The translations under genes were made by a program, and so were the position numbers. Below the pieces are notes generated by a model. That model did no database searches, was not told the origin of the DNA, and saw only the letters and a program-made list of their open reading frames with translations. DNA of 40,709 nucleotides from an uncultured bacterium (GTDB lineage: Bacteria > Cyanobacteriota > Vampirovibrionia > Gastranaerophilales > Gastranaerophilaceae), in assembly GCA_902761735.1 (NCBI GenBank), contig CACWLL010000015.1, positions 1 to 40,709 on the forward strand. Reading direction: 5' to 3'. Numbering within the stretch: the first letter of the stretch is position 1; each line of letters begins with the position of its first letter. Below, piece by piece: positions 1 to 13,855 of the stretch.

Positions 1-1
1 T

Positions 2-553
2 AAATATAGCGGTCATTCATTGTATCAACATTTTTACCTGAATAATGCTGCATATGAGCGTAAAAATAAAACAGGAAATGAGATTTTAGACGAATTAAAT
101 TTTACACCCGTTAATGCTTCCCATGGTGCAGGGATATCTGTTTCAGTTCCTTTACCCAATTTTCTAAAAAAGAATCAGAATAGGAATAATAAATCTGAAA
201 TAAAAACAAAAAATTTTAATTCAGAAGATGAGTATTTTGATGATTCGGAAGCAGAGAATCAATCATACAAAAATGATGATATTTTTGCTAAAAGCTATGG
301 TCAGGATGCAACTGCCGAAAGCTCGGATTTTTACGCAGACGATAATTCAAATAGTCTTTCAGTAACGGAACCTGTTGCATCGCCAATATTTATTGATAAT
401 TGTGTAAAACCTGTGGCGTGTAATTTACAGAACGGATGTCCGTTGAAAGATTCTCATTTTATGGAAAAGTATTGTACAAGAAAAGACGTACAGGAAGAAA
501 TTTCTGACATTATTCGTCAGACTGCATTGTCCCTCGGGGTTAATCTTGATTAG
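2..553 (+). CDS. Partial hypothetical protein upstream of portal (C-terminal part)
   Basis: The reading frame is open from the left edge, so this is the C-terminal end of a longer gene; the first in-frame start-like codon (TTG at 20) has no ribosome site and is probably internal. The visible part has a short structured start, a long Asp/Asn/Ser-rich low-complexity middle (roughly residues 50-120) and a C-terminal segment with four cysteines (CVKPVAC, then GCPLKD and KYCTRKD) and a helical tail. It ends 42 bp before the portal gene, where a terminase large subunit is usual, but I see no terminase motif in this part. It could be a terminase tail, a fused accessory domain or an unrelated late gene. 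Function not recognised. Confidence 0.6.
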   Translation, partial: KYSGHSLYQHFYLNNAAYERKNKTGNEILDELNFTPVNASHGAGISVSVPLPNFLKKNQNRNNKSEIKTKNFNSEDEYFDDSEAENQSYKNDDIFAKSYGQDATAESSDFYADDNSNSLSVTEPVASPIFIDNCVKPVACNLQNGCPLKDSHFMEKYCTRKDVQEEISDIIRQTALSLGVNLD

Positions 554-595
554 TATTTTTCATTTTATAACATTAAACTTTTACAAGGAGGATTT

Positions 596-1867
596 ATGCT
601 TACATCTTTTGCTACGGATTCTAATTTTAGGAAACTAAAATGGGATGCCGAGGACTCTGTTAGGCTGCAAAAGTATATCAGATACAGAGAGCTTTACAGA
701 AGTGAATTTTCAAGACCGTTTCGCGGTGTAATTACAAAATTATTGCAAAGATACCCAATGCAAAATACTACTGCGCAAACCTTGATTGAGGTAAATTTAT
801 TTAAAGCCGTTACGGATTTTTACAAGTATTTAATTACAAATGAAGATTTCAAGATTGAAATTAATGGTGAAAACCAAATTTTATGGGAAAATATTGCTCA
901 TGAAAATAATTTCATATCTGTATTAAAAGAAGTTTGTGTCGACAGCTCTCGTTTCGGTGATGCTCTAATAAAAGTTGCACTAACCGATGAAGGCGTAAAG
1001 ATTTTTTCGGTTTGTCCCGATTGCTGGTTTCCTGTTTTCAGAAACGGAAATTTAAATGAACTTGAGGGGCATATATTGCTTTACGACATAGTCTTTCAGG
1101 GTAGAGTGTATAAACACATTGAAAAAATTCATAAAGGATATGTTGAAAATGAAGTTTGGGAAATTTCCAACGGTATTTTAACCAAACAAATTCAGGATAC
1201 AACGCTGTTTGGGCTTTTGCCGTTCGATGATTTCTCAGATAAGTGGAACGATTTTATTTTATTTCATGTAAAAAATACAACAGAAAGTGATTCGTATTAT
1301 GGAGAAAGTGATTATAAAAGTATTGAGAGTTTGGTTGAAGAAATTATGCTTACAATTTCTCAAAATTCCAAAATAATAAATCGTCATGCAAATCCAAAGC
1401 TTGCAGGCAGTATAGAAAATACGGAACTTAACCCAATTACAGGAGAACGGCATTTCCCTAATTCCGATTTTATTACTATGGGTAAAGACGGGCAAAAACC
1501 CGAGTATATAACAGTTGATTTGCAGTCTGAAGCAATAAAAACACATGTGGATTCATTAATGCAGTTTTTCTATATTTTATCCAAAACCCCTCCTCAAGCA
1601 TACGGAATTGATATTTCCCCTAATATGTCCGGAGAAAGTTTAAAGACAATTATGTCGTCTGCAATTGCAAAAGTAAATGATATCAGAACGGTGTCTTTAA
1701 ATAATGCGTTAATGAAAACTGTAGAATGTGCACTTGCGTTCTCAGGGGTAAAAAAATCAGAAGTTTCAATTAAGTGGGAAAAAGATAATGAAAATTCTGT
1801 TAAGGGTGCGGATGAAATGTCGGATAATCCTATAAGTAATAAAGGAGAAAATAAAGATGGAAATTAA
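596..1867 (+). CDS. Phage portal protein
   Basis: A 423-residue protein with the size of SPP1/HK97-like portal proteins. Portals form the dodecameric ring at the capsid vertex through which DNA is packaged and to which the tail attaches. The clearest signature is in the middle: SYYGESDYKSIESLVEEI, the portal segment with a glycine-rich turn followed by a helix of the 'I..L.eEI' type, followed by NRHANPKLAG. An acidic/Asn-rich C-terminal tail follows. The ATG at 596 has an AAGGAGG ribosome site 5 bases upstream. Its stop overlaps the next gene's start by 11 bp, and connectors, scaffold and capsid follow in standard phage order, which supports the call. Identification is by motif, length and context. 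Confidence 0.82.
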   Translation: MLTSFATDSNFRKLKWDAEDSVRLQKYIRYRELYRSEFSRPFRGVITKLLQRYPMQNTTAQTLIEVNLFKAVTDFYKYLITNEDFKIEINGENQILWENIAHENNFISVLKEVCVDSSRFGDALIKVALTDEGVKIFSVCPDCWFPVFRNGNLNELEGHILLYDIVFQGRVYKHIEKIHKGYVENEVWEISNGILTKQIQDTTLFGLLPFDDFSDKWNDFILFHVKNTTESDSYYGESDYKSIESLVEEIMLTISQNSKIINRHANPKLAGSIENTELNPITGERHFPNSDFITMGKDGQKPEYITVDLQSEAIKTHVDSLMQFFYILSKTPPQAYGIDISPNMSGESLKTIMSSAIAKVNDIRTVSLNNALMKTVECALAFSGVKKSEVSIKWEKDNENSVKGADEMSDNPISNKGENKDGN

Positions 1868-2303
1868 TTTAGATAATGCAGATGTGTATTTTGCCAATCA
1901 TCTATATTCCAGTTCTTGGGTATGTTCTTCGGAATCTGATAAGCTCGCTGCTCTTTTAATGGCAAAAGATGCTGTTTTTAGGCTTCCTTATATTGGCGAA
2001 AAACACTCAATTGCGCAAGCAGAACCTTTCCCAAGATTATATTGCGGAAGTGTAATAACATTACCTGATGATGTTGTAAAAGCTGTTTTTGAAGAAGCTT
2101 TAGAACTTCTAAAAAAAGTTGAGAGTGAGTCTGTTTCAGTAATTCCCGAAGGTGTGCAATCAATGAGTTTGGGCGGAGCGAGTATTTCATTTAAAGATGC
2201 ATCGGGAGTATATAAAATCTCAAAAAATGCATTGGAATATCTTGAACCGTGGTTAAAAAAAGGATTTGATTTTAATTCCGCAAAGTTTGGAGAGGTGTAC
2301 TGA
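1857..2303 (+). CDS. Head-tail connector/adaptor protein
   Basis: A 148-residue protein that fits the phage adaptor family sometimes labelled 'DnaT-like ssDNA-binding'. Seen: an N-terminal ANHLYSSSWVCSSESDKLAALLMAKDAV helix region (tryptophan and 'ESDK..AL..A' pattern), a QAEPFPR segment, a 'LPDDVVKAVFEEALELL' helix and a 'GVQSMSLGGASISF' strand region near the C-terminus. In other phages this protein docks under the portal. The start overlaps the portal stop by 11 bp, with AAGGAG upstream, which indicates translational coupling. The ssDNA-binding label seen for this family is likely historical; adaptor is the better reading given the context. Confidence 0.7.
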   Translation: MEINLDNADVYFANHLYSSSWVCSSESDKLAALLMAKDAVFRLPYIGEKHSIAQAEPFPRLYCGSVITLPDDVVKAVFEEALELLKKVESESVSVIPEGVQSMSLGGASISFKDASGVYKISKNALEYLEPWLKKGFDFNSAKFGEVY

Positions 2304-2653
2304 TGATATTTAAATTTTTTGCAAAAAATAAATTTGATATTTATTCAAAAGTTGTTTTAACAACCGGTGCAGGTGATGATATTTCTTGGACAAAGCGTGC
2401 TGTTATAAGTGCCTATATTGAGCCTGCCGACGGAGAAAATTTAAAAGGATGTCCTGAGGGGTTAGCAAAAAATGTTTCACTAACTCTTTTTACTCAGCAG
2501 CCGATTAATACGGGAGAGAGAATACACATTATCTCCCCCGAAACCTCCGTTGACGAGTGGTTTGAAATAGTAAGTCGCTCTTTTTATAAAATGCCGTTTT
2601 TTAATTATTTTAAAGGATATTTGGTGAAAACAGATGAAAACATATCAGTTTAA
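2303..2653 (+). CDS. Head-closure (stopper)-like protein
   Basis: A 116-residue protein with mainly beta-type sequence (VVLTTGAGDDISW, VISAYIEPADGEN, VSLTLFTQQPINTGERI), the size and position of head-closure or stopper proteins that plug the connector after packaging. It shares one base with the preceding stop/start junction (TGATG type) and overlaps the following gene by 20 bp, so all connector genes are translationally coupled. I assign it by size and its place between adaptor and neck gene; no diagnostic motif was seen. Confidence 0.5.
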   Translation: MIFKFFAKNKFDIYSKVVLTTGAGDDISWTKRAVISAYIEPADGENLKGCPEGLAKNVSLTLFTQQPINTGERIHIISPETSVDEWFEIVSRSFYKMPFFNYFKGYLVKTDENISV

Positions 2654-3164
2654 AAATACATTATTTGAATATTTTTATTCAAAATTTATTGAAGCTTATC
2701 CGGCGTTTGAAGGAAAGGTCTTTAGGGAAAGATTAAAAATTGATAAACCTGATTGCCCGTTTTTAGTTTTAAAATCCGGTGAAAGGAATCGAATAAACAA
2801 ACGCTTTGAAAAATTTAGAGAAAATAATATCGATTACATAAGAGCAAATTACAGAATGCTTGTAAATTTTAAACTTCACGTTTTAGAAGAAAAACCTATG
2901 CAAGCAGAAGCTTTTGCAGATGAGGCTCTAGATTTTATAGAAGCTTTTTTCCTTGATAATGAGTCGACGCATGCAGATTTAAGAGATGTCGGTATTGTTG
3001 TAAATGAGGAGTTGTGTTCGGGGATTCGAGATCAATCAGAATTTTCAAAGACAGCTCAAGAGTTTGTTCGAGATATAGATATTGTATTTGAATTTGAAGA
3101 TATAAAACCAGAAGCTTCAGTTTTGGGTAAAGAACTCGAAACGAATATTTTATCAAAATTTTAA
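2634..3164 (+). CDS. Neck / tail-terminator-like protein
   Basis: A 176-residue protein, starting with FKNTLFEYFYSKFIEAYPAFEGKVF, an arrangement (N-terminal helix, 'YP' turn, then beta strands such as YRMLVNFKLHVLEE and REVDI-like RDIDIVFEFED) typical of phage tail-completion proteins that cap the last tube/sheath ring. It lies fourth after the portal and before the scaffold gene. The start overlaps the previous gene by 20 bp. The assignment is by fold-like pattern and position; a generic head-tail joining role is the alternative. Confidence 0.48.
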   Translation: MKTYQFKNTLFEYFYSKFIEAYPAFEGKVFRERLKIDKPDCPFLVLKSGERNRINKRFEKFRENNIDYIRANYRMLVNFKLHVLEEKPMQAEAFADEALDFIEAFFLDNESTHADLRDVGIVVNEELCSGIRDQSEFSKTAQEFVRDIDIVFEFEDIKPEASVLGKELETNILSKF

Positions 3165-3179
3165 TTAAAAGGAGACTTT

Positions 3180-3620
3180 ATGGATAAAAAAGAAGTAAAA
3201 ATAAATAAACTTACGTTAAAAAAGGTTGAGCGAGAAAAAGAGATTGGAGAAAGAATTTTTGGAACTGCTTCAAAAGTTAAAAGTATAGAGCAAACCGATA
3301 ATAAGAATATTCAAACACAATCTCAAAATCCTGACATTCAAGCTTTACAAAGAGAAATTATGGAGCTAAAGACCGAAAATCGTAAAATTAAGGCATCTGC
3401 TGCCCTTGACAAATTAGGGTGTATAAAAACCGATTTGGTTATTAAAGCTTTACCTGATGATTGCGAAGATATTCAGGGTTGGATTGATACTTTTAAGGAA
3501 GAAAACGAGTTTCTCTTTAAAGAATATAACTCAACGCATGGCGGAAGTTATAAACCAACGCAATCTACCAATTTAAGCCCTACAGAAATCATGAATAATT
3601 ATATCCGCGGAATTATGTAA
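3180..3620 (+). CDS. Capsid scaffolding-like protein
   Basis: A 146-residue, highly charged protein. The N-terminal half is Lys/Glu-rich, residues about 57-80 form a likely coiled coil (QALQREIMELKTENRKI), a small helical domain follows, and the C-terminus is SPTEIMNNYIRGIM, a short helix of the kind that binds the capsid protein in scaffolds. It sits immediately upstream of the major capsid gene, the usual place for a scaffold. The ATG has a good AAAAGGAGA ribosome site. No protease domain is visible, so it would be a separate, non-cleaving scaffold. Inferred from composition and position. Confidence 0.6.
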   Translation: MDKKEVKINKLTLKKVEREKEIGERIFGTASKVKSIEQTDNKNIQTQSQNPDIQALQREIMELKTENRKIKASAALDKLGCIKTDLVIKALPDDCEDIQGWIDTFKEENEFLFKEYNSTHGGSYKPTQSTNLSPTEIMNNYIRGIM

Positions 3621-3642
3621 TATTAAAATTTATAGAAATTGT

Positions 3643-3667
3643 TGCATCCTTGTTTTTCGAGGATGTA
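3643..3667 (+). promoter_or_regulatory. Hairpin in the leader of the capsid gene
   Basis: The 8-base arms at 3643-3650 and 3660-3667 are complementary (one G-U pair) around a 9-base loop. No T-run follows, so it is unlikely to be a terminator. It lies 17 bp upstream of the capsid ribosome site (3685-3693) and may be an RNA-processing or stability element for the highly expressed capsid message (inference). Confidence 0.45.
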
Positions 3668-3700
3668 TTTGTGTGTACTTATAAAAAAGGAGATTTTGAA

Positions 3701-4639
3701 ATGACAGTTCATGTTATTGAAAGAGCCAACAGTGAGGCTTTAATTCCTGTGGAAACTTGTAACGAAATTATCAAAGAAATTCCTAATGCATCAAAATTGC
3801 TTCCTTTGATGAAGAAGTTGCCTAATATGTCATCAAAACAAAAAACGATTCCGGTTCAAAATGCTTTACCGGAAGCCTATTTCTTATCCGGCGATATGGC
3901 ACAAAAACAAACATCAAAAGCCGAATGGGAAAAATTAACCCTTACTGCCGAAGAATTAGCGGTAATAATACCTATCCCGGAAGCAGTATTGGATGATGCC
4001 GCATTTGATATTTGGACTGAAATTAAGCCTCAAATTGTCGAAGCACTTGGTATTGCAATAGATGGTGCTATTCTTTTCGGGATTAATAAACCGTCAAGCT
4101 GGCCAACATGTATCTATGATGCTGCAGTTGCAAAGCATCAGACTGTTGAATTAGGTACTCAAGAGGATGTCGCAGCCGATATTATCGGTGTTGACGGATT
4201 AATGGCAAAAGTCGAAAATTCAGGTTTTGTTGTAAACGGATTTATTGCAGATGCAACTTTTGAAGCTCATTTAAGAAATTTGCGTGATTCAAATAATAAC
4301 TTACTGTATAGCTCATCATTGCTGAGTTCAACCCCATCTAATCTGATAGGCAGACCAATCGAATATGATAACAGCGGAGTTTTTGATACAACAAAAGCAC
4401 TAATGTTTTGTGGTGATTTTTCAAAGGCTGTGTACTCAATTCGTCAGGATGTTACTTATAAAGTCTTATCAGAAGCCGTAATTCAGGATACTGAAGGTAA
4501 TATAGTTTATAATTTAGCACAACAGGATATGGTAGCATTAAGAGTTGTTATGAGATTAGGTGTACAAATTGCAAATCCTGTTACAAGAAGAAAAGGAAAT
4601 GCAGGTTATCCGTTTGCGGTATTAACTCCTGCTTCTTAA
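3701..4639 (+). CDS. Phage major capsid protein (HK97-fold)
   Basis: A 312-residue protein from the ATG at 3701, chosen over an upstream in-frame start at 3650 because AAAAAGGAGA (3685-3693) is correctly spaced from 3701 and because the longer form would run through the leader hairpin. HK97-type features: a helical N-arm (ETCNEIIKEIPNASKLL), a KQKTIPVQN strand, an E-loop-like LSGDMAQKQTSKAEWEKL, then ELAVIIPIPEAVLDDAAFDIW leading into the long spine helix, and a C-terminal MVALRVVMRLGVQIANPVT strand ending in the A-domain. It would form the icosahedral shell. Hairpins lie on both sides, consistent with separate, high-level expression. Confidence 0.85.
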   Translation: MTVHVIERANSEALIPVETCNEIIKEIPNASKLLPLMKKLPNMSSKQKTIPVQNALPEAYFLSGDMAQKQTSKAEWEKLTLTAEELAVIIPIPEAVLDDAAFDIWTEIKPQIVEALGIAIDGAILFGINKPSSWPTCIYDAAVAKHQTVELGTQEDVAADIIGVDGLMAKVENSGFVVNGFIADATFEAHLRNLRDSNNNLLYSSSLLSSTPSNLIGRPIEYDNSGVFDTTKALMFCGDFSKAVYSIRQDVTYKVLSEAVIQDTEGNIVYNLAQQDMVALRVVMRLGVQIANPVTRRKGNAGYPFAVLTPAS

Positions 4640-4713
4640 TAAATTTATTTTTGATACAAATTTTATAACCTTTTTGGTTGTTAATGTATCTTGCTGTTTA
4701 CCTCTTATTGTTT

Positions 4714-4742
4714 CTAACCCGCATTGAGCGGGTTAGATTTTT
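4714..4742 (+). terminator. Terminator after the capsid gene
   Basis: A perfect 9-bp stem (CTAACCCGC / GCGGGTTAG) around a 5-base loop, followed by ATTTTTATT. It falls between capsid and sheath genes, inside the late operon, so it must be partly read through, antiterminated, or followed by a new promoter. Confidence 0.8.
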
Positions 4743-4768
4743 ATTAACTAATTTATAAGGAGAAAATT

Positions 4769-5914
4769 ATGACTGTTTATGATGATTTAATAAGCATCTT
4801 ATTCAAACTTCCTGACGGCAGGAATTTAGAAGAATATTTTAAAAATATTTTGCTTTTAGCAAAGTTTTCTGATAATGATTTAGCTGAGAATAATACATTC
4901 CCTCAATCCGGTGTCAAAAAGTATTCTTCATATGATGAAATTGTTATGGATTTTAACGCATCATCTCAGATTGCAATTGAAGCACAAGCGATATTTAATC
5001 AGAAAAATAATACTCAAACCAAATCACAAGTAATGTATTTAATCGTAGCAAAACAAGCTGAAGGTTCTACTGTTGCGGAAGCTCTTGATGCTGCAAAGAA
5101 TATTGACGGTAAATTTGCCAAAGTAGTGCCTTTATCAAGATTATCTGCAGATATATCTGCTGTGGCTGACTGGTGTATGACTAATAGCAGATTTTGTGAT
5201 TGCGTAGTTTCAAATGTAGAGGATGTATCAGATTTAGTTGAAAATTTGAATAATTATACCTACGGTATATTCCGCAAAAATATGCAAGAACCTATTGCCT
5301 CTGCGCTTGCATCAACATCTACTTGCGGTAAATTTGGAGCAAAGGATGGCTCTGCACAATTTACCCAATTAATAGGAATTTCTCCTGAACAATATACCGG
5401 TGCTGAAATTTCTGCTATGAAAAGCAATAATTTAGCTTTTTATACAAATATTTCACCAATTGATGGCGGTAATACTTCGGAATTCGGCTATAACTGGGTT
5501 GTTGGCTCAAGAATGCTCGGCGGTGAATTTAGGCAACGTTGTATGATTAAACACTATATAGAAAAAGCTGTTGGGCTTATGGCACTTGAGTTTTTTAATA
5601 AAAAACCAATGTATGATGAAACCGGTAATAATTTATTATTAACCATGGCTCAAAAATTGTTTAATACTTTCCAAACATATAACTTGATTATCCCAACTAC
5701 AGCAGAACAAGTCGGATATGAGTTAAAAGTTACACCGATAAGAGTCGGCAAAAACAGTATTATGAATACTGATACCGAGGCATATAATGCAAAAAGATTT
5801 AAACTGTCAGGCTATTACTATGACGCAATTGTTGGTGAAAAAGTAGATTTCATGTTTACGGTTGACCCGTCTGAAGAAGAAGTTGCTCAAATCCTCGGAG
5901 GTGGTGAGGAATAA
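4769..5914 (+). CDS. Contractile tail sheath protein (DUF3383-type)
   Basis: A 381-residue protein resembling the DUF3383 tail-sheath-like family. Seen: an N-terminal sheath domain with helix-strand alternation (YLIVAKQAEGSTVAEALDAA, FAKVVPLSRLSADISAVADW), a central alpha/beta core, NNLAFYTNISPIDGG and GYNWVVGSRMLGGEF (the sheath 'G.......R' region), then a C-terminal domain with helix FRQRCMIKHYIEKAVGL and the terminal strands LKVTPIRVGKNSI and LSGYYYDAIVGEKVDF used for inter-subunit handshake. It forms the contracting outer cylinder. The tube gene follows directly, as in myoviruses. The start has TAAGGAG 8 bases upstream. Confidence 0.82.
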   Translation: MTVYDDLISILFKLPDGRNLEEYFKNILLLAKFSDNDLAENNTFPQSGVKKYSSYDEIVMDFNASSQIAIEAQAIFNQKNNTQTKSQVMYLIVAKQAEGSTVAEALDAAKNIDGKFAKVVPLSRLSADISAVADWCMTNSRFCDCVVSNVEDVSDLVENLNNYTYGIFRKNMQEPIASALASTSTCGKFGAKDGSAQFTQLIGISPEQYTGAEISAMKSNNLAFYTNISPIDGGNTSEFGYNWVVGSRMLGGEFRQRCMIKHYIEKAVGLMALEFFNKKPMYDETGNNLLLTMAQKLFNTFQTYNLIIPTTAEQVGYELKVTPIRVGKNSIMNTDTEAYNAKRFKLSGYYYDAIVGEKVDFMFTVDPSEEEVAQILGGGEE

Positions 5915-5953
5915 TAATTTTTGTCAAATGTTTAATAATATAGGAGAATAAAA

Positions 5954-6334
5954 ATGACTGTATATGACGCAAAAAATATTGAATTTTCCTGGAAAGGGAT
6001 TACTTTAACGGGAACCGGTGATGATCACGCTTATTCAATTTCTCAAGAAGGCGCAAGTGTAAAACCATATAAAGGCGTTCAGGGAGAAGGCTTAAATATT
6101 GTCAATAATCAGCGAATTTGGAAAATTAGCAGAAGTTTTAAGGTTGATAGTAAGTCGTTACCTATGCTATTTGAGGATTGTATGAATTTCGTAGAGGATG
6201 AATTGGTCGTCAGAGATATTAATACCGGTAAAGATGATATTTTTTCTGAGTGTATGATTTCGAGTATAGAGGGAGAAAAAGATTCTTCAACAAGAGTTGT
6301 TCATTGGGTTGCTCTCAGTCGAAATTCTAAGTAG
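5954..6334 (+). CDS. Tail tube protein (DUF3277-type)
   Basis: A 126-residue, mostly beta protein beginning MTVYDAKNIEFSWKGITLTG, the pattern of DUF3277 structural proteins that build the rigid inner tube. A central GVQGEGLNIVNNQRIW and the C-terminal VVHWVALSRN strand complete the barrel. It immediately follows the sheath gene, the usual sheath-tube order. A second gene of the same family lies at 8129-8506 among the baseplate genes; this copy is assigned as the main tube because it adjoins the sheath and is followed by a terminator. Ribosome site AGGAG. Confidence 0.8.
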   Translation: MTVYDAKNIEFSWKGITLTGTGDDHAYSISQEGASVKPYKGVQGEGLNIVNNQRIWKISRSFKVDSKSLPMLFEDCMNFVEDELVVRDINTGKDDIFSECMISSIEGEKDSSTRVVHWVALSRNSK

Positions 6335-6347
6335 TACATATAATGTG

Positions 6348-6373
6348 CCGGCAGATTTTTCTGCCGGTTTTTT
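6348..6373 (+). terminator. Terminator after the tube gene
   Basis: A 7-bp GC-rich stem (CCGGCAG / CTGCCGG), 6-base loop and TTTTTT tail. It separates sheath and tube, needed in many copies, from the baseplate genes needed in few. Confidence 0.85.
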
Positions 6374-6392
6374 AAATATAAGGATTATTTTT

Positions 6393-6725
6393 ATGTCTAA
6401 AGCTTATTTGTTGCCTGATATTTCTGATAATTCTCGAGTTTATGCAGAATATGTTATAAATAATAAATCTTATTTTTTTGTATTTGATAATAGAGATTTT
6501 TTTGTATTTATATCGGTTTATCAATCAGATGATTTGTCAACTCCTATTATTGAAGGTTATCCTTTGTGCTCGGGTGTTGATGTGTTTGCCAGAGTTAAGG
6601 ACTCAAATATTTTTCAGGGAAAACTTATACTTGAGCCCAAACTTAATAATTCTGTTTCTTTATACTCTGATAGTATGTCTGATTATTACCAATTTGTATA
6701 TTATAGTCCGGATGAGGGTGCTTAA
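6393..6725 (+). CDS. Baseplate plug-like small protein
   Basis: A 110-residue protein from ATG 6393 (ATAAGGA upstream; longer in-frame extensions run back through the terminator). The sequence is rich in beta strands and aromatics: VINNKSYFFVFDNRDFFVFISVY, TPIIEGYPLCSGVDVFARV, GKLILEP. This resembles the single-domain plug proteins at the top of the hub in simplified myovirus baseplates (the cyanophage Pam3 type), and its position directly upstream of the hub gene is the same. It is where tail chaperones and a tape measure would normally be encoded, but at 110 residues it cannot be a tape measure. Family assignment is tentative. Confidence 0.5.
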   Translation: MSKAYLLPDISDNSRVYAEYVINNKSYFFVFDNRDFFVFISVYQSDDLSTPIIEGYPLCSGVDVFARVKDSNIFQGKLILEPKLNNSVSLYSDSMSDYYQFVYYSPDEGA

Positions 6726-6737
6726 GAGGAGGCTTTT

Positions 6738-7556
6738 GTGGAAAATTCCAGTGATTTTTTTTATTTAACTGTAGATGCAGGTTTAATTAAATTTAATTCG
6801 GGAAATTATGATATTAATTTTTCGATAATAAGGACAGATGATTATGTACCTGATACTGCATTTATTCAAATTCACAATATAAACCAGAAGGATTTTTCAT
6901 TATTGCTGAATCCTTTAAGAGAGTTGTCCTTGTATATGAAATTGTCAGATAAGTTGCCGTTATTGTTATTTAATGGTAACGTATTACCATCTTCTGTCAA
7001 GGGTATTTCAAAGTATATTAAAACAAATAATAATTATTCTAATGATATAAGAAATTCAATAACTGCAGTTGATTCACTAAGATTTTATTCCGATATGCTT
7101 GATATTAACTATATTGAGGCTGTTTCGGCATTAACATTAATCAAAGACTGTGCTGCTTCATCGGGGATAAAAGGAGTGTTTTTCTCAAAAACTATACAAG
7201 ATAAAGTTTATTCAAAATTTAAAGCCCTCGGTAGTCCGTGTAAAATAATAAAAAATATTTGTAATGCATTAGAAGAACAGTTTTATATTTGTGGAAATAA
7301 TTTATATGTAGGGGATGTGCCTTCAATTAATTTGTTGTCACCCGTGCTGGATTTATCAAATTCATCAATCCCTGTTCGCATAAATGGTGGTGCATTCAGG
7401 CTTATAACAAAATTTAATTCAAGTATAAGACCCGGCGGTTATGTAAATACTTATTTCCCATCTCTTTTGGTTGGGGAATTCAGGGTTAGTCAGGTTTATA
7501 TCTATGGAAATACAAGTAAAAATTTTATCGAGATGTCGTTAGAAATAAAGGTGTAG
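6738..7556 (+). CDS. Baseplate hub protein
   Basis: A 272-residue protein of the gp27/gpD hub type: the trimeric ring joining tube and spike. Seen: beta-rich N-terminal half (FNSGNYDINFSIIRTDDYVPDTAFIQIHNI), a middle helical domain (YIEAVSALTLIKDCAASSGI, KIIKNICNALEEQFYICGNNLYVGD) and a C-terminal barrel with FNSSIRPGGYVNTYFP and FRVSQVYIYGNT, typical of hub proteins. It starts with GTG at 6738, with AGAGGAGG 5 bases upstream overlapping the previous stop. The next gene encodes the spike, confirming the order. Confidence 0.65.
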   Translation: MENSSDFFYLTVDAGLIKFNSGNYDINFSIIRTDDYVPDTAFIQIHNINQKDFSLLLNPLRELSLYMKLSDKLPLLLFNGNVLPSSVKGISKYIKTNNNYSNDIRNSITAVDSLRFYSDMLDINYIEAVSALTLIKDCAASSGIKGVFFSKTIQDKVYSKFKALGSPCKIIKNICNALEEQFYICGNNLYVGDVPSINLLSPVLDLSNSSIPVRINGGAFRLITKFNSSIRPGGYVNTYFPSLLVGEFRVSQVYIYGNTSKNFIEMSLEIKV

Positions 7557-7558
7557 TT

Positions 7559-8113
7559 ATGCTAAAAAGAAACATTGTTTTTAATACTGAAAAAATAATA
7601 AATGCTTTAATGAAAAATTTGTACGTAGAAAAGCCTTGTAAAGTTCTGGCAGTTAAAGAGCACTCAAAATTTGTCGATGTAGAATACTACGATAATAATG
7701 AGCCTAAAATATTGTATAATGTGCCCGTAAAGCATATTCAAAGCTCAAGAGCGTTTGTATTTTTGGGTTTGTCTGTTGGAGATAGGGGAACTTTGAGATT
7801 CTTTGATTCTTCGGTTACCGAATATCTTGAAAGTTTAGAAAATAAAAGCAGAGAAAGCAGAGCACATGATATAAATGACGGCTATTTTGCAGTAGGATTT
7901 TTCCCGACCCAGGAGCTGTATAATTTGCTTCCGCAATATGGTGATATTGTAATAGGTACGGCAGAGGGTGCAACTGTCGAAATAAGCGGTTCTGATATCG
8001 TAATATCCGGAGGTAATGTGAATATTTCCTCAAATGTTATTATTGACGGCAAATCATTTTTAACGCACCGACATTCTACATCAGGAGGTTCTCCAACAGG
8101 CGGCGTAATTTAG
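7559..8113 (+). CDS. Baseplate spike protein (gpV-like)
   Basis: A 184-residue protein with an N-terminal OB-fold-like part (CKVLAVKEHSKFVDVEYYD, YNVPVKHI, FVFLGLSVGDRGTLRF) and a C-terminal triple-helix-like repeat region (ATVEISGSDIVISGGN, VNISSNVIIDG). It ends with THRHSTSGGSPTGG, an HxH pair (H170, H172) at the position where P2 gpV-type spikes bind a metal ion at the tip. It pierces the outer membrane or envelope on contraction. The gene is 2 bp downstream of the hub stop. Confidence 0.78.
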   Translation: MLKRNIVFNTEKIINALMKNLYVEKPCKVLAVKEHSKFVDVEYYDNNEPKILYNVPVKHIQSSRAFVFLGLSVGDRGTLRFFDSSVTEYLESLENKSRESRAHDINDGYFAVGFFPTQELYNLLPQYGDIVIGTAEGATVEISGSDIVISGGNVNISSNVIIDGKSFLTHRHSTSGGSPTGGVI

Positions 8114-8128
8114 AATAAGGAGATTGTT

Positions 8129-8506
8129 ATGACTATTTATAACACAAAATATACCCAATTGATTTGGCGCGGAATAACGTTAAGAGATTTCGCATCATCT
8201 GATATTGCAGTTTCTCAGTCAGGTAGCAGTATTCAAACTTGCATCGGAATATTTGGTGAAAGCTTTAGTTTCCCACACATAAAAAGAGGTTGGGAAATCC
8301 GCTCGTCATTTTTAGCTTCAAGCGATATCTTTAAGATTCTTGATAATGACAACCTTTGTAATAGAAGCGGACTAATTGTAATTAATGATATGAATTTAGA
8401 TGTTACTGATGTTTATTCCGGCTGCAGAATTGTTTCAGTTAATATTTTACCCGGAGGAAATGAACGTCAAGTCGTTTGGTATGCAAAGGCAAAGAACGGA
8501 AGGTAG
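8129..8506 (+). CDS. Second tail-tube-family protein in the baseplate block
   Basis: A 125-residue protein that aligns end to end with the tail tube at 5954-6334: both start MTxY, share a W.GITL motif at residues 13-18, an S.SGSS/SQEGAS turn near residue 30, G..GE..., W.I..SF and the closing VVWYA/VVHWVA strand followed by a basic tail. Identity looks modest (about a quarter to a third by eye). It lies between spike and gp25-like genes, so it may form the first tube ring (initiator) on the hub, as the second tube-type proteins of extracellular contractile injection systems do. That role is inference; a redundant or alternative tube is possible. Ribosome site AAGGAG. Confidence 0.7.
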   Translation: MTIYNTKYTQLIWRGITLRDFASSDIAVSQSGSSIQTCIGIFGESFSFPHIKRGWEIRSSFLASSDIFKILDNDNLCNRSGLIVINDMNLDVTDVYSGCRIVSVNILPGGNERQVVWYAKAKNGR

Positions 8507-8515
8507 GTGTTATTA

Positions 8516-8869
8516 ATGGATATTTGTATTGATAATTCGCATATAGTTATGTCTAATGGCGATTTTGTTTTCATCGACGATTCTGTGCGGGAAGTAAAAC
8601 AGCATATTATTGTTGCGTTAAATACTTTTTTAGGGGATTGGGTTCTTAATTCCTTGAAAGGGATAAATTATCCTGCAGGATTAAGGGAGAACGATTTGTT
8701 GGAGGTAGATGTAAAAAAGCAATTGCTGGGAGTAAAAAATGTTAGAGCCATAGATAATTTTAAGCTGATTTTTTCAAACGATAATAAGTCAGTTAGTGTT
8801 TCGGCAACTGTATTTACGACATTTGGAAACATTTTAAAGTTATCTGAAACGGTTAATTCTTACTACTAA
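8516..8869 (+). CDS. gp25/gpW-like baseplate wedge protein
   Basis: A 117-residue protein from ATG 8516, preferred over the upstream GTG at 8507 because GGTAGGTG is then correctly spaced. It shows the gp25/DUF2634 pattern: a short strand pair (GDFVFIDDSVREVKQHIIVALNT), FLGDWVLNSLKGINY, then a helix-strand segment (VDVKKQLLGVKNVRAI) and VSVSATVFTTFGN. This family forms the wedge core with gpJ and nucleates the sheath. The gene order gp25-gpJ-gpI is the standard myovirus baseplate order. Confidence 0.78.
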   Translation: MDICIDNSHIVMSNGDFVFIDDSVREVKQHIIVALNTFLGDWVLNSLKGINYPAGLRENDLLEVDVKKQLLGVKNVRAIDNFKLIFSNDNKSVSVSATVFTTFGNILKLSETVNSYY

Positions 8870-8885
8870 AAACGGAGATATAATT

Positions 8886-10058
8886 ATGAAATTTATAAAT
8901 TGTGAAATTATTGAAGATAATAAGCAGGACATTCAGTCGTTTTACCGGCAAAATATTTTAGATTTATTTCCAAACATCGATAATATTCTTGAAGGAGGTT
9001 TGATTGATAAATTAATAAAACTATTAGTTGATTATGAACTTGATATGCAAGAGAAGATTAAATGGTTGTACTCTCAATTTTCTCCAACCGGTGTCGAAAA
9101 TTTTCTTCAAGATGCATTATATGAAAGGATTGGTGTGCTAAGATTAAATGCAGCCCCTATGATAGTAAAGCTCAGATTGGTATCAAACCCGGGAATATCC
9201 CTAAGAGCTGAATCCTTACGAATCAAAAATACTTATGATAATTCCGAATTTAAAAACAGTTCTGACATTTTGTTTGATTCTGAGGGGTATACGGAAGCCG
9301 AATTTTTTTCAGATAGCGTCTCGGCAGAGACTCCTGAATTATCTTTTAAGGTTTTCCGTTCACCTGTAAGCTTGCGTATCGATGAGGATTATCCTGTATC
9401 AATTATATCGATGGGACATCCAATAGAGTCTGATGTCGGATATAAAGAACGGTATAACAATTCAAAAGCTATAAAAGCTTGTGTTACGCCCGGTGGAAAT
9501 ATTTCAAATCTGTCAAAACATCTAGATTCGTTATCTTATATAAATATTTTAACTAAAAATTCAAATCCTGAAATGGATTTTGGAACCGTAAGAATAATCG
9601 TCAAGCATAATACAAGTGATGAGATTTTTGCAAGAGAAATTTTTGAAACATTTGGAGTTGGAATTAAATTTCTTGGTGATACATGTGTTGAACTTTTAGA
9701 TTCTTGCGGTTATCCCGTAAATATAAGATTTGATAAAGCAAAAGAAATACCCGTTTTAATTTATATATATCTAAATTTTGTGCGGGATGTTTCTTTTGAG
9801 CAAGGGGTGGAACAAGTTAAAAATGCTCTTATTGGCTACGTAAGTTCAAATATTTTTGGGCTTGGTGTAAATTTATATGCAACAGATTTAGCGAATCCAA
9901 TATTGAAATGCCAGGAAGTAGCTTTACTAAAGAGAATAAAGCTTAATCGTGGAGACTCAAATGATTTAGTCGATAACATATCATTTGCTGTTGATGAAAT
10001 TCCGATATTTAAATTTGAATACATATATGTAGAGGAGGAAGTAAATGGTGGTATATAA
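8886..10058 (+). CDS. Baseplate wedge protein J-like
   Basis: A 390-residue protein matching the gpJ/gp6 family of wedge proteins. Seen: LLVDYELDMQEKIKWLYSQFSPTGVENFLQDALYERIGVLR at the start (the recognisable 'G..Ld..a...gl.R' region), a central beta domain with NPGISLRAESLRI, a VTPGGNISNLSKH segment (the gpJ 'G..GN....I' feature), and a C-terminal repeat domain ending in a VDEIPIFKFEYI strand. It dimerises with gp25- and gpI-type proteins to form the wedges. It overlaps the next gene by 14 bp. Confidence 0.78.
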   Translation: MKFINCEIIEDNKQDIQSFYRQNILDLFPNIDNILEGGLIDKLIKLLVDYELDMQEKIKWLYSQFSPTGVENFLQDALYERIGVLRLNAAPMIVKLRLVSNPGISLRAESLRIKNTYDNSEFKNSSDILFDSEGYTEAEFFSDSVSAETPELSFKVFRSPVSLRIDEDYPVSIISMGHPIESDVGYKERYNNSKAIKACVTPGGNISNLSKHLDSLSYINILTKNSNPEMDFGTVRIIVKHNTSDEIFAREIFETFGVGIKFLGDTCVELLDSCGYPVNIRFDKAKEIPVLIYIYLNFVRDVSFEQGVEQVKNALIGYVSSNIFGLGVNLYATDLANPILKCQEVALLKRIKLNRGDSNDLVDNISFAVDEIPIFKFEYIYVEEEVNGGI

Positions 10059-10617
10059 TTTTGAAGAACTTTCCCCGGGATATATATTGCCCTATTTGAG
10101 AACTTGTCCGGAATTGGTTTCGTTAATGAAATTAATAGGAAATAGATTTAATTCTATACAGGCTGTTCTATTAGCGTTGCTTGAATGCTACGATATATCA
10201 AACTGTAAAGGACGACTTCTTGATTTTGCGGGTGATGAGGTTGGCGCATCCAGAGAAGAAGCGTCTATTGATAATTATTTTACTGTAAACTTGTATCATT
10301 TAAATGCCGAGAAACACTTTTATTTTTCTGATTCCGGTATTTCTCCATATAGCAATTTATCCTTAGAAGATAGTGAATATATGCAAAAAATATTTGCTTA
10401 TATTTGTAAGAATACTACATTTCCAACTTTTGATGAGGTTATTTATTGCACTAAGTTAATAACTAATGCCGACAGAGTTTTAATTTCTGACGGGTCTTTT
10501 GGGTTAATTATACATTTATTCGGGGAGAATATCTTTTTTACAAGTAAAGGATTAAAATTACTCCGAGAAATTTTATGTGAAGGTATTTATATAGAGGAGA
10601 TTAAAATTAATGAGTAA
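10045..10617 (+). CDS. Baseplate protein I-like (DUF2612-type)
   Basis: A 190-residue protein; the N-terminal part (YLRTCPELVSLMKLIGNRFNSIQAVLLALLECYDISNCKGRLLDFAGDEVG) is typical of gpI/DUF2612 wedge proteins that connect gpJ to the fibres. The rest is alternating helix and strand. ATG 10045 has AGAGGAGG upstream and overlaps gpJ by 14 bp; its own end overlaps the fibre gene by 8 bp. Confidence 0.72.
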   Translation: MVVYNFEELSPGYILPYLRTCPELVSLMKLIGNRFNSIQAVLLALLECYDISNCKGRLLDFAGDEVGASREEASIDNYFTVNLYHLNAEKHFYFSDSGISPYSNLSLEDSEYMQKIFAYICKNTTFPTFDEVIYCTKLITNADRVLISDGSFGLIIHLFGENIFFTSKGLKLLREILCEGIYIEEIKINE

Positions 10618-12031
10618 ACCTGTAAAACCAAATGTTACTTTGCCTTCTGAGTTCGCACTTAGAGGTCAGAAACGAGATTTTAGTGAAGACAAAATTTTAA
10701 ACGGATTTAGTTCGGTATCGCCGGATGTTTTGTCGGGTGATAACTTAAATAAATTTATAGATGATACATATAAAAGTATAAATTATGCAACTGATAGTAT
10801 TGATGATTTATATTCGTCTCTAATTACATATAATTCGGATGAAATATATAATCAAAACTCAATTGTTTTTGATATAGATTCTTATGGGAAAATTCATCTG
10901 TATATATCGAAAACAGATAATAATACCGGTAATTCTTTGGATAACGATACTTATTGGAAAGAAGTTTCCTTGGGTGGGTCAACTCGTAATGTAGGCGAAC
11001 TGGTATATTCGTCGTTACCTCAAACAGATACGGGTTTACACTTGCTAGATGGTGCTTTAATACAAGGTAGCGGTAGCTATTCGGCTTTTGTAGATTATAT
11101 TGCTGATTTATATACAGCTAACCCTACGGCAAACTACTTTACTGATGAAACCACTTGGCAAAATACGGTTACACAATATGGTGTATGCGGTAAGTTTGTT
11201 TACGATAGCACAAATAATACAGTAAGATTACCTAAAGTAACGGGTATTGTAGAAGGTACAACAAATCTTGCAGTGTTAGGGAATTTAGTGCAAGCAGGCT
11301 TGCCGTTGAGTTGGTTTGAACACAAACATACTCGTGGAGATATGAATATTACGGGTAGTGTAATATTTACGGAAACAGGCGACTCTGATAAATCCACTAT
11401 AAGAAGCTCAAGTGGAGCTTTTACGAACACTGGCGGATATGGTGGTGGTTGGGGGCAAATTCAGCCTACCGACCAAAATTGGGTTCAGCGATTAGACTTT
11501 GATGCATCTCGTAATTGGACAGGTTCGACTTCAACCCCGAATTACACGAGCTTAAGCCATGATGCGAGCACCGTTCAGCCACAAACCATAAAATGCTTTG
11601 TATATATTGTTATCGCAACTTCAACTAAAACTGATATTCAGGTTGATATAGATGAGATTGCTACTGACCTTAATGGTAAAGCTGATACTGATTTATCGAA
11701 CACCACAGACCAAGCAAAAATCCTTATGGGCGGTATGGCTATGCCTAGCAATAGATATATTGATTTAACACTTGGTGCAAGCGGAACACAATATACCGCT
11801 CCTGCAAATGGTTATTTTGGTATTTTTGCTCGTTCAGCAGATACAGTAAGATTTGAGGGATTAGAGTATAGTGTGACAATGCCAAATGCTAGTAACTTAG
11901 TAAGTTCGGTTATATTCCCAATATTGAAAGGTAAAACCATAACATTAAACTACGGAACTTTAAATTTATCTGAGAGTTGGTGTTATTTCCGATTTATCTA
12001 CGCACAAGGTTCAGAAAGTGAGGCTAACTAA
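10610..12031 (+). CDS. Tail fibre / collar-type receptor-binding protein
   Basis: A 473-residue protein. The N-terminal 130 residues should attach to the baseplate. The middle has the tail-collar-like pattern VDYIADLYTANPTANYF...VCGKFVYDSTNNTVRLPKVTG...AGLPLSWFEHKHTRGD with a Gly/Thr/Ser-rich segment (GGYGGGWGQIQPTDQNW) as in trimeric fibres. After a short helical link with a heptad-like IDEIATDLNGKAD stretch, the C-terminal 110 residues form a separate beta domain, probably the receptor tip. Starts within the stop region of gpI. Confidence 0.75.
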   Translation: MSKPVKPNVTLPSEFALRGQKRDFSEDKILNGFSSVSPDVLSGDNLNKFIDDTYKSINYATDSIDDLYSSLITYNSDEIYNQNSIVFDIDSYGKIHLYISKTDNNTGNSLDNDTYWKEVSLGGSTRNVGELVYSSLPQTDTGLHLLDGALIQGSGSYSAFVDYIADLYTANPTANYFTDETTWQNTVTQYGVCGKFVYDSTNNTVRLPKVTGIVEGTTNLAVLGNLVQAGLPLSWFEHKHTRGDMNITGSVIFTETGDSDKSTIRSSSGAFTNTGGYGGGWGQIQPTDQNWVQRLDFDASRNWTGSTSTPNYTSLSHDASTVQPQTIKCFVYIVIATSTKTDIQVDIDEIATDLNGKADTDLSNTTDQAKILMGGMAMPSNRYIDLTLGASGTQYTAPANGYFGIFARSADTVRFEGLEYSVTMPNASNLVSSVIFPILKGKTITLNYGTLNLSESWCYFRFIYAQGSESEAN

Positions 12032-12468
12032 TGTATTATATAGAAAATAATGATAAGGTAGTATTATTTGATGAGGATTTATCGAAGCTACAAGATACGA
12101 TAAAATTTATGCCAAATTATCAAAAGTCGGATATCAAAGAAACAGATAAAAGGATTATTTCTTTTGATGGTAATTTTTATTTTCAAGATGACTCGGAGTT
12201 GATATCTAAGCGTATAGCGCAATTTGAAAAAGAGTTCTTTGAAACGTCTTTGGGCTGGGTTCGCCGTACAGTTACGATGCAGGACAACTGTACAAAAGAT
12301 TTTCTTTCTGATATTTTACCGTTATTACAGTCGGATATTCCTGTTTTGACTTATGAAAAACCGGATTTTGTTGAAACTTTTGTCCCTCAACAGAATAGGG
12401 TTATGGTAACAGAGGAGTTTATCAATGAATGCAAACAACAAGTACTGAAAGATTTTTACGGAGAATAA
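12031..12468 (+). CDS. Fibre-associated protein, possible chaperone
   Basis: A 145-residue protein that starts on the last base of the fibre stop codon, hence coupled to it. A helical N-terminal part is followed by FFETSLGWVRRTVTMQDNCTKDFLSDILPLL and PVLTYEKPDF, a motif set I associate with small genes next to fibre genes in gut phages. A fibre-assembly chaperone is the likely role from the position only; I do not recognise a named family. Confidence 0.5.
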   Translation: MYYIENNDKVVLFDEDLSKLQDTIKFMPNYQKSDIKETDKRIISFDGNFYFQDDSELISKRIAQFEKEFFETSLGWVRRTVTMQDNCTKDFLSDILPLLQSDIPVLTYEKPDFVETFVPQQNRVMVTEEFINECKQQVLKDFYGE

Positions 12469-12469
12469 A

Positions 12470-12715
12470 ATGCATGGAATAAATTTGGATTTAGTTATAT
12501 CCGTCACTATTCAATTAATTGCAATAGGTGTATTTATAGGAGTTTATAAGACTACTATTTCGTTTATGCAATTACAGATTGAGGAATTAAAAAATGATAT
12601 GAGAAAATATAATAATATTCTTGAAAGGATGATTGTAACGGAACAATCATTAAAATCTGCTCATCACAGAATTGATTCGGTTGAGTATAGTTTGACTAAA
12701 AAATATAACGTATAA
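12470..12715 (+). CDS. Small membrane protein with coiled coil (holin/XhlA-like architecture)
   Basis: An 81-residue protein: N-terminal membrane helix (about residues 6-28, DLVISVTIQLIAIGVFIGVY) followed by a helical, coiled-coil-like tail (FMQLQIEELKNDMRKYNNILERM...). This resembles membrane-anchored accessory lysis proteins such as XhlA in outline, but one helix is little to go on. It is the last gene before the terminator that closes the phage module. No endolysin follows. Confidence 0.5.
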   Translation: MHGINLDLVISVTIQLIAIGVFIGVYKTTISFMQLQIEELKNDMRKYNNILERMIVTEQSLKSAHHRIDSVEYSLTKKYNV

Positions 12716-12880: not shown

Positions 12881-13855
12881 ATGAATATTTTATTTATTAT
12901 TGACAGAATTGAGTTTAAATATTTTGAATTTAATAACCTAGTTACAAATTTTTGGCTAATAAGAGAAATGCTAAAATTAAATCACTCTGTGTCAATAGCT
13001 ACTATTGATGATTTAGTTTTAGTGAACAAAAAGGCTTGGGCTCACTGCTATAATGTATATGTAAAAAATGAAAATATATTTTATGACAAAAATAGTCTGC
13101 TTAGAAATATTAATGATTTTCAACTTGTTATGTTCAGACAAGATCCGCCGGTAGATGGAGATTATATTAATTCAACATATATATTTGACTTTGTTGATAG
13201 AGATAATACGCTAATTATAAATGAACCTTCATCTATAAGAGATTTTAATGAAAAATTACATACGGTTTATTTTTCTGAACTAATGCCAAAAAATATTGTC
13301 ACCGCATCTAAATCAGATATAATAAAATTTTTAGATGAAAATGAAGAAATTGTTCTGAAACCTCTAAACAGGTGCTTTGGTTCGGGTGTTATGACTTTAA
13401 GACAGGGCGACAAGAATACCTCCGTTATAATTGATTTAATGACAAACAGCGGTAAAACTCTTGTTATGGTACAAAAATATATTAGTGCAGCCGTAAATGG
13501 AGATAAAAGAGTATTATTTTTGGGAGATAAGGTTTTACCATATTGTGTACAAAAACTTCCGGGCAAAAATGATTTCAAATTTAATGAGCACTGTGATGCT
13601 AATATAATAAAAGCTGAGTTAACGGCTGAGGAATTAGAAAATTATGTTCCTGTTGCAAAAAAATTGAATTCTATGGGATTACCTTTAGTCGGATTAGATG
13701 TTATTGACGGTAAAATTATTGAGATAAATGTTACAAGCCCGTGTTATTTTATCAAGGAAATAAATGCTCATTTCGGTTGTAATTTAGAACAAGAAATCAC
13801 CGAATTTATTGTAAATAAAGTTGAGTCAAAAATTTTATCAGGAGTCGTTTCTTAA
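12881..13855 (+). CDS. gshB: Glutathione synthase (ATP-grasp)
   Basis: A 324-residue protein matching prokaryotic glutathione synthase, which joins gamma-glutamylcysteine and glycine using ATP. Family landmarks: MFRQDPPVDGDYINSTYIFD and NEPSSIRDFNEKLHTVYF in the N-terminal part (typical GshB: 'R.DPPfd..Yi..T..l', 'N.p..lrd.NEKl'), the ATP-grasp core IVLKPLNRCFGSGVM, a VQKYISAAVNGDKRVLF strand and the metal/substrate part LVGLDVIDGKIIEINVTSPC near the end. Length is normal for the family. It is a single-gene unit with its own promoter after the phage terminator. No gamma-glutamylcysteine ligase gene is in the window. Confidence 0.85.
   Translation: MNILFIIDRIEFKYFEFNNLVTNFWLIREMLKLNHSVSIATIDDLVLVNKKAWAHCYNVYVKNENIFYDKNSLLRNINDFQLVMFRQDPPVDGDYINSTYIFDFVDRDNTLIINEPSSIRDFNEKLHTVYFSELMPKNIVTASKSDIIKFLDENEEIVLKPLNRCFGSGVMTLRQGDKNTSVIIDLMTNSGKTLVMVQKYISAAVNGDKRVLFLGDKVLPYCVQKLPGKNDFKFNEHCDANIIKAELTAEELENYVPVAKKLNSMGLPLVGLDVIDGKIIEINVTSPCYFIKEINAHFGCNLEQEITEFIVNKVESKILSGVVS

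Follow-up and report, generated by a model that had tools for sequence, protein, structure and literature searches.

How can a contractile tail be built when the gene for its ruler is missing? The question is raised by a stretch of 40,709 nucleotides (the window) from an uncultured bacterium of the Gastranaerophilaceae, which is contig C15 of a 2.0 Mb genome (G000). Positions 1–12715 of the window are a phage-derived element, whose genes there lie without exception on the plus strand; host genes follow downstream, including gshB at 12881–13855. Contig C14 of G000 carries the rest of the element, and both contigs break within a lipase gene. Between tail tube and baseplate, where a tape measure protein (TMP) would be encoded, the element has no gene. 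A tape measure is considered indispensable in long-tailed phages. We lean, without great confidence, towards the view that this is a long-kept phage-derived contractile particle, with head genes retained, from which the TMP and its chaperone have been lost, the role having been taken by tagged effectors.

The empty tape-measure slot

Between the end of tail tube 1 (5954–6334; phrog_280, E=2e-8) and the ATG of the baseplate plug gene at 6393 there are 58 bp. This stretch, 6335–6392, is the empty slot for chaperone and TMP, and it contains a terminator-like hairpin at 6347–6368. The plug is a 110-residue protein resembling Pam3 gp18 (6393–6725; Pfam Pam3_gp18, E=3.3e-7; phrog_349), for which a search of PDB sequences gave no relevant match. 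The hub follows at 6738–7556 (phrog_196, E=3e-9), then the spike at 7559–8113, assigned from Pfam PF18352 (E=1.4e-4) and position, a second tube-like protein (tube 2, a probable tube initiator) at 8129–8506 (phrog_280, E=0.001) and a gp25-like sheath initiator or wedge at 8507–8869 (phrog_120, E=3e-16). An earlier note on this DNA had claimed that 5954–8869 leaves no room for another gene and that a 473-residue fibre is the longest gene of the module. Both claims hold, the 58 bp being the largest gap anywhere in that interval. The order of genes given in the note also stands, although its labels need amendment: the unassigned 110-residue gene is the plug, the terminator is likely to be the gene upstream at 2634–3164, and the second tube-like gene at 8129–8506 had gone unnamed.

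A search of the remaining genome for a TMP, which the note had proposed, found no homologue in the assembled G000 with profiles of the relatives' TMPs of ~310 residues and of TMP_3-type TMPs. Whole-genome profile searches were negative in all eight genomes covered (G000 and seven genus-mates), and the slot is empty in every genus-mate in which the tube and plug genes are assembled together. A gene of 298 or 322 residues after the tube in G012 and G003, respectively, was considered as a TMP and ruled out, being a Dit-like protein. The tail-assembly chaperone linked to the TMP is absent from G000, G007, G003, G004 and G012, and is retained but displaced in G011, G010 and G002. The absence of the TMP from the slot is real.

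In all 14 genomes folded, a strong hairpin lies 3' of the tube gene regardless of which gene comes next, and the hairpin sequences are unrelated. The tube–plug junction therefore seems to be a transcriptional boundary of long standing, and not the recent scar of a deletion. A terminator-like hairpin is also found in the window 3' of the major capsid protein (MCP) gene, at 4713–4737.

Tape measures and intermediates in relatives

When single sheath sequences were searched against phage records and viral contigs, nothing matched. An alignment-based scan identified two metagenomic free-phage contigs, L155 and L156, whose sheaths are 65–68% identical to that of the window (4769–5914; phrog_205, E=6e-23). 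Each carries one collinear operon, in which the tube is followed by a chaperone, a TMP (507 and 505 residues), a Dit-like protein, the plug and the hub. In genus g5 the slot holds a chaperone and a TMP of 501–511 residues, which is a genuine tape measure (phrog_2335, E=5e-44; Pfam TMP_3, E=1.4e-24) and matches the TMPs of L155 and L156 at 2e-74 and 2e-122. Genus g54 mostly has a chaperone and a TMP of ~310 residues, the C-terminus of which matches the g5 TMP. Related modules with a TMP, the existence of which the earlier note had left to be checked, are thus found in L155, L156, g5 and g54; in the window's own genus, however, the slot is empty in each of the species seen and the modules are intact.

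In genus g17 the chaperone is followed by up to three proteins of 394–423 residues, which have a common N-terminal region, a variable middle and, at the C-terminus, the anchor described below. One of them matches TMP_3 (E=1.2e-7) and, by BLAST, the g5 TMP (6e-6). They alternate with small opposite-strand genes encoding multiple transmembrane segments, one of which has a weak TM2-domain match. These arrays of TMP-derived proteins and 6–11 small opposite-strand membrane genes occupy the region between chaperone and plug at L017 3999–12701, L022 12306–21044 and L071 5194–12755 (reversed view). The arrays resemble pore-forming bacteriocins with membrane immunity genes. Foldseek of a model of a g17 TMP-toxin returned no significant match.

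A C-terminal anchor shared by tape measures and enzymes

From the C-terminal 42 residues of seven g54 TMPs a profile was built and used to search 1484 six-frame open reading frames (ORFs). The 11 best non-seed matches were all exact C-termini of large ORFs of these elements, namely the g5 TMP, the g17 proteins, a g54 protein, the lipase of G002 and an M15-type protein of G004 that is truncated by a contig end. With the iterated profile, the next three unseeded ranks were the G004 protein and the lipases of G003 and G011. Individually these three scores are weak (13, 8 and 7 bits, respectively), and the argument therefore rests on ranking together with position: in G003 the gene directly 5' of the plug, where a TMP would be encoded, is the lipase. 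As judged by sequence comparison, the lipases and the peptidase-like protein of the genus-mates end in the same anchor as the TMPs of their relatives.

Further copies of the anchor occur in G003 (L016), where a frame-shifted near-copy lies behind a 371-residue effector and decayed anchors lie behind truncated lipases. Orphan cassettes are found at L016 10330–10720, 11560–11760 and 13150–13420. The near-copy and the decayed anchors are as an exchange of cassettes would predict.

A conventional TMP might nevertheless lie in the unassembled sequence that separates C14 from C15, or have diverged past recognition, and it is the case that both contigs of G000, and both of G007, end in this region. 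This seems highly improbable. In G003 the assembly runs without a break from tube to plug, and the lipase is the only anchor-bearing full-length ORF there, and the profile searches were negative throughout the eight genomes.

A private tag in two genomes

The window opens with the C-terminal part of a lipase-like effector gene (20–553), truncated by the contig start and homologous to the C-terminal part of a 482-residue lipase in G007. A terminase was considered for this fragment and ruled out; it is the end of the lipase, and TerL is encoded on C14. Codons 365–553 specify a private tag shared with the C-terminus of an otherwise unrelated 512-residue protein on C14 (E=1.6e-14). The G007 versions of these two proteins have 58 residues in common, at 90% (E=5e-33). 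A profile of the tag has two strong matches in each of the two genomes, all inside the element, the best elsewhere being at E=0.03. Within one genome the two copies of the tag are 62% and 98% identical, and between G000 and G007 43–49%, while the body of the 512/546-residue protein is 65% identical between the two. The tag evolves in concert within each genome.

It is in precisely these two genomes that plug and hub stand apart, with 21–35% identity to all others; the plug of the genus-mate G011 is still 37–49% identical to those of other genera. Such a pattern is what would be expected, without amounting to proof, had tag and receptor been replaced together.

Lipases and their Kelch neighbours

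The lipase carries a G-x-S-L-G motif. All ten matches of a lipase profile to PDB sequences were lipases (best 1e-5), and the top 22 Foldseek matches of a structure model were class-3-type lipases or esterases (best E=2.9e-4), the model having a mean predicted local distance difference test score (pLDDT) of 42. It is on the motif, the profile matches and the Foldseek search of this low-confidence model that the designation lipase-like rests.

Kelch-type proteins are encoded beside the lipases in G000, G002, G003 and G011, and the lipase of G007 has next to it a fragment homologous to the Kelch gene of G000. A natural guess is that they are periplasmic immunity proteins. In G011 a row of about six secreted Kelch-type genes lies near one lipase (L011 2837–5368; L044 14427–19479), in a manner reminiscent of an immunity array. 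The G000 Kelch gene by the lipase is split into ORFs of 89 and 348 residues (C14, also L042, 511–1859, minus strand), which may reflect a frameshift, an assembly error or decay.

Selection and chromosomal position

When G000 was compared with G007, all 14 head and tail genes examined were open. Ratios of nonsynonymous to synonymous substitution (dN/dS) were 0.02–0.28 in 13 of the 14, with a synonymous divergence similar to that of gshB; in tube 2 synonymous sites were saturated. The sequences thus indicate a module that is not decaying and is under purifying selection.

The element begins directly after flgC in G000, G002, G003, G006, G007, G010, G011 and G012, thus in seven species besides that of the window, whilst G001, G005, G008 and G009 have no element at this site. 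gshB was ruled out as a constant downstream flank, being adjacent only in G000, G007 and G002. In a sheath tree, G010 and G011 fall outside a supported clade (95/99) of G000, G007, G002, G003, G004 and G012. Of 383 sampled genomes of the family, 26 in four genera have a close sheath homologue. The assembled element contains no unassigned gene of the size of an integrase; this result does not extend to the C14–C15 gap and was obtained without an integrase profile.

That no integrase is seen would also fit a decaying prophage remnant, with TMP and chaperone simply deleted and no functional tail, as would a gene order scrambled relative to the free phages, the split Kelch gene of G000 and the truncated cassettes of G003. 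We consider this improbable. None of the 14 head and tail genes compared is interrupted, and they are constrained at a synonymous divergence typical of separate species, and the identical empty slot recurs in every genus-mate with both flanking genes assembled together. Since the modules are intact and the slot is empty in all species seen of the window's genus, replacement rather than decay looks to be the explanation. The suggestion of the earlier note that the module had been repurposed is in keeping with its fixed site, the lack of an integrase in the assembled parts, purifying selection and the presence of enzyme genes flanked by immunity-like genes.

A proposed mechanism

In the explanation that we favour, multidomain effectors with a C-terminal tag that binds hub or plug would replace the TMP in the lumen of the tube. 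In G000 these would be the class-3-type lipase, of which the tag end is window 20–553, and the 512-residue protein of C14. A tagged effector would bind plug and hub while the baseplate assembles, and tube 1 would then polymerise around it, beneath the sheath, so that the effector occupies the tube from within and fixes its length or an upper limit to it. Contraction would expel the effector, with or before DNA, into a target cell. The secreted Kelch proteins encoded beside the lipases would act as immunity proteins.

The weakest step is the setting of tail length by the effector, which we infer. At 1.5 angstrom per residue, 480–620 residues would span 72–93 nm if fully helical, and less with the lipase domain folded. 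The earlier note had offered, among other readings, that length is set in another way or that the tail is extremely short. The former is supported by the features listed above for repurposing; the latter is not needed. The candidate replacements, of which 20–553 is the C-terminus of one, lay out of the note's view.

Several points weigh against this explanation. No homology between the private tag and the TMP anchor was detected, either by hhalign or with the anchor profile. The G000 lipase is broken by contig ends, which hide its true length and whatever sequence lies between, and the structure models are of low confidence. Finally, a tail tube may be too narrow to admit an alpha/beta-hydrolase in its folded state, in which case loading would have to take place in unfolded form or past the end of the tube.

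The tagged proteins might instead be cargo docked on the baseplate, as effectors of the type VI secretion system (T6SS) are on its spike, with tail length determined in the absence of a ruler, for instance through the kinetics of the terminator or the action of the second tube protein. The tag is short, the bodies that it joins differ in kind and in length, and the second tube protein and second gpJ are derived features unseen in L155 and L156. T6SS tubes, moreover, assemble without a TMP. Against this, the anchor is homologous to the ends of real TMPs, in g17 the bodies are TMP-derived too, and the G003 lipase sits at the position of the TMP gene. We regard cargo without a ruler function as unlikely.

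Comparison with known systems

With its capsid, portal, terminase (TerL, on C14), sheath, tube, plug, hub, spike and wedge, the element has features of a contractile-tailed temperate phage of the Pam3 kind. Its plug of the Pam3 gp18 family, hub, spike, gp25-like protein, gpJ and gpI are like those of the minimal-baseplate myophages of the Pam3/XM1 type (PMC9382816, PMC11633184) and of L155 and L156. Unlike the window element, Pam3 and L155/L156 have a TMP and a single collinear operon, and the extra tube-like and gpJ-like genes are a feature of the window element. Tailocins and extracellular contractile injection systems have no head genes, whereas here MCP and portal are intact and constrained.

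Effectors derived from or related to TMPs, with exchangeable domains, have been described in actinobacterial contractile injection systems, namely Sle1 and the Tme of Streptomyces davawensis, one of which has a linked immunity protein (PMC13277306). The elements considered here likewise have TMP-derived proteins that would have turned into effectors. The actinobacterial systems, however, are headless and their conserved coiled coil is N-terminal with the variable domain at the C-terminus, an arrangement that is reversed here, where head genes are also present. In the MuF polymorphic toxins of temperate phages, which are abundant in gut bacteria, a structural protein carries toxins and is accompanied by immunity genes (PMC5576092). 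A phage structural protein serves as the carrier of diverse domains in both cases, but in MuF toxins it is a head protein with a C-terminal toxin, and here a tail anchor at the C-terminus; no MuF domain was found in the tagged proteins examined.

The N-terminus of the T6SS DNase Tde1 resembles part of some TMPs (PMC10240207). T6SS lipase effectors such as PDB 7ubz offer a further parallel, a lipase delivered by a contractile tube, for which Kelch would be the immunity protein; the sequence similarity of the lipase to 7ubz is weak (E=0.6), and the carrier would be a tag for a phage tail hub and not VgrG, Hcp or PAAR. Polymorphic toxin systems are marked by a shared trafficking domain, exchangeable toxin domains, immunity genes linked to them and orphan cassettes; the elements show a shared tag on unrelated bodies, linked Kelch or multi-transmembrane genes and the decayed G003 cassettes, with roles in toxicity and immunity that are putative. 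TMP-derived effectors in headless systems (PMC13277306) and MuF toxin carriers (PMC5576092) are thus already known. In the literature searched, which mostly did not cover subscription journals, we found neither a tag-borne replacement of a TMP on a headed particle nor such an element in Gastranaerophilales.

The remaining genes of the element

Head genes occupy the first part of the window. The portal (596–1867; phrog_533, E=1.7e-24; Pfam SPP1_portal) is followed by a head-tail adaptor (1857–2303; phrog_477, E=8e-9), a head closure or minor head protein (2303–2653; phrog_4185, E=5.5e-7) and the probable tail terminator or completion protein (2634–3164), which has no family match but has a homologue directly 5' of the sheath in L155, L156 and other relatives. 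A probable scaffold (3180–3620) is suggested by a weak Phage_scaffold match and its location 5' of the MCP (3650–4639; Pfam Phage_capsid, E=9e-35), for which dN/dS against G007 is 0.02. Pfam Phage_sheath_1 gave no match in G000, because the sheath is too divergent. In g5 a further gene lies 3' of the portal (L072 2825–4168, Phage_min_cap2) that is absent after the portal of the window; it is probably also present in L155 (3164–4720) and G004 (L046 12887–13645).

Downstream of the gp25-like gene are gpJ-like baseplate wedge 1 (8886–10058; phrog_6, E=6e-14), a gpI-like baseplate protein (10045–10617; phrog_587, E=4e-9; DUF2612) and the 473-residue tail fibre (10610–12031), which is assigned from position and length, has no family match and is variable among relatives. 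A small fibre-associated protein (12031–12468), assigned by position, and a small membrane protein, possibly a holin (12470–12715; phrog_1863, E=9e-10), complete this half. C14 encodes an XRE repressor, a 127-residue gene product, an M15 peptidase, a TerS-like protein, the 512-residue protein, a Dit-like protein (Pfam Dit_like, E=4.5e-5), a second gpJ, TerL (with a homologue in G012 confirmed by Pfam), the Kelch protein and the N-terminus of the lipase.

The element thus holds two tube-like genes (5954–6334 and 8129–8506) and two gpJ-like genes, the second being on C14 (L042). L155 and L156 have one of each, and tube 2 is absent from these and from genus g5. From this distribution, the duplicate tube and gpJ look like derived features of the fixed elements.

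Retention of capsid, portal, TerS-like and TerL genes, the constraint on capsid and portal and the fixed chromosomal site would also suit a gene transfer agent, with host DNA as the packaged load and a mere aid to entry as the part of the tagged enzymes, like the enzymatic TMP domains of phages. The immunity-like gene arrays fit competition better, and we think this reading unlikely; it is compatible with the favoured explanation and not exclusive of it.

Implications

Taken together, the relatives form a series from a TMP of ~505 residues, through a short one of ~310 and TMP-derived proteins of ~400 residues with immunity-like neighbours, to tagged lipases without a TMP body. It is possible, and we suggest it tentatively, that these elements form a class of headed contractile particle of a new sort, their tape measure having been turned into a polymorphic toxin, with interchangeable bodies (lipase, peptidase-like or hydrophobic and pore-former-like), a common hub-binding C-terminus, linked immunity genes and several alternative ruler-toxins per genome, the toxin that is loaded setting the length. 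If this is true, the series from TMP to tagged lipase would show how a ruler becomes a payload, and it could be tested whether a suitable hub-binding end is all that a protein needs to set tail length. A largely uncultured gut lineage would also gain a delivery system.

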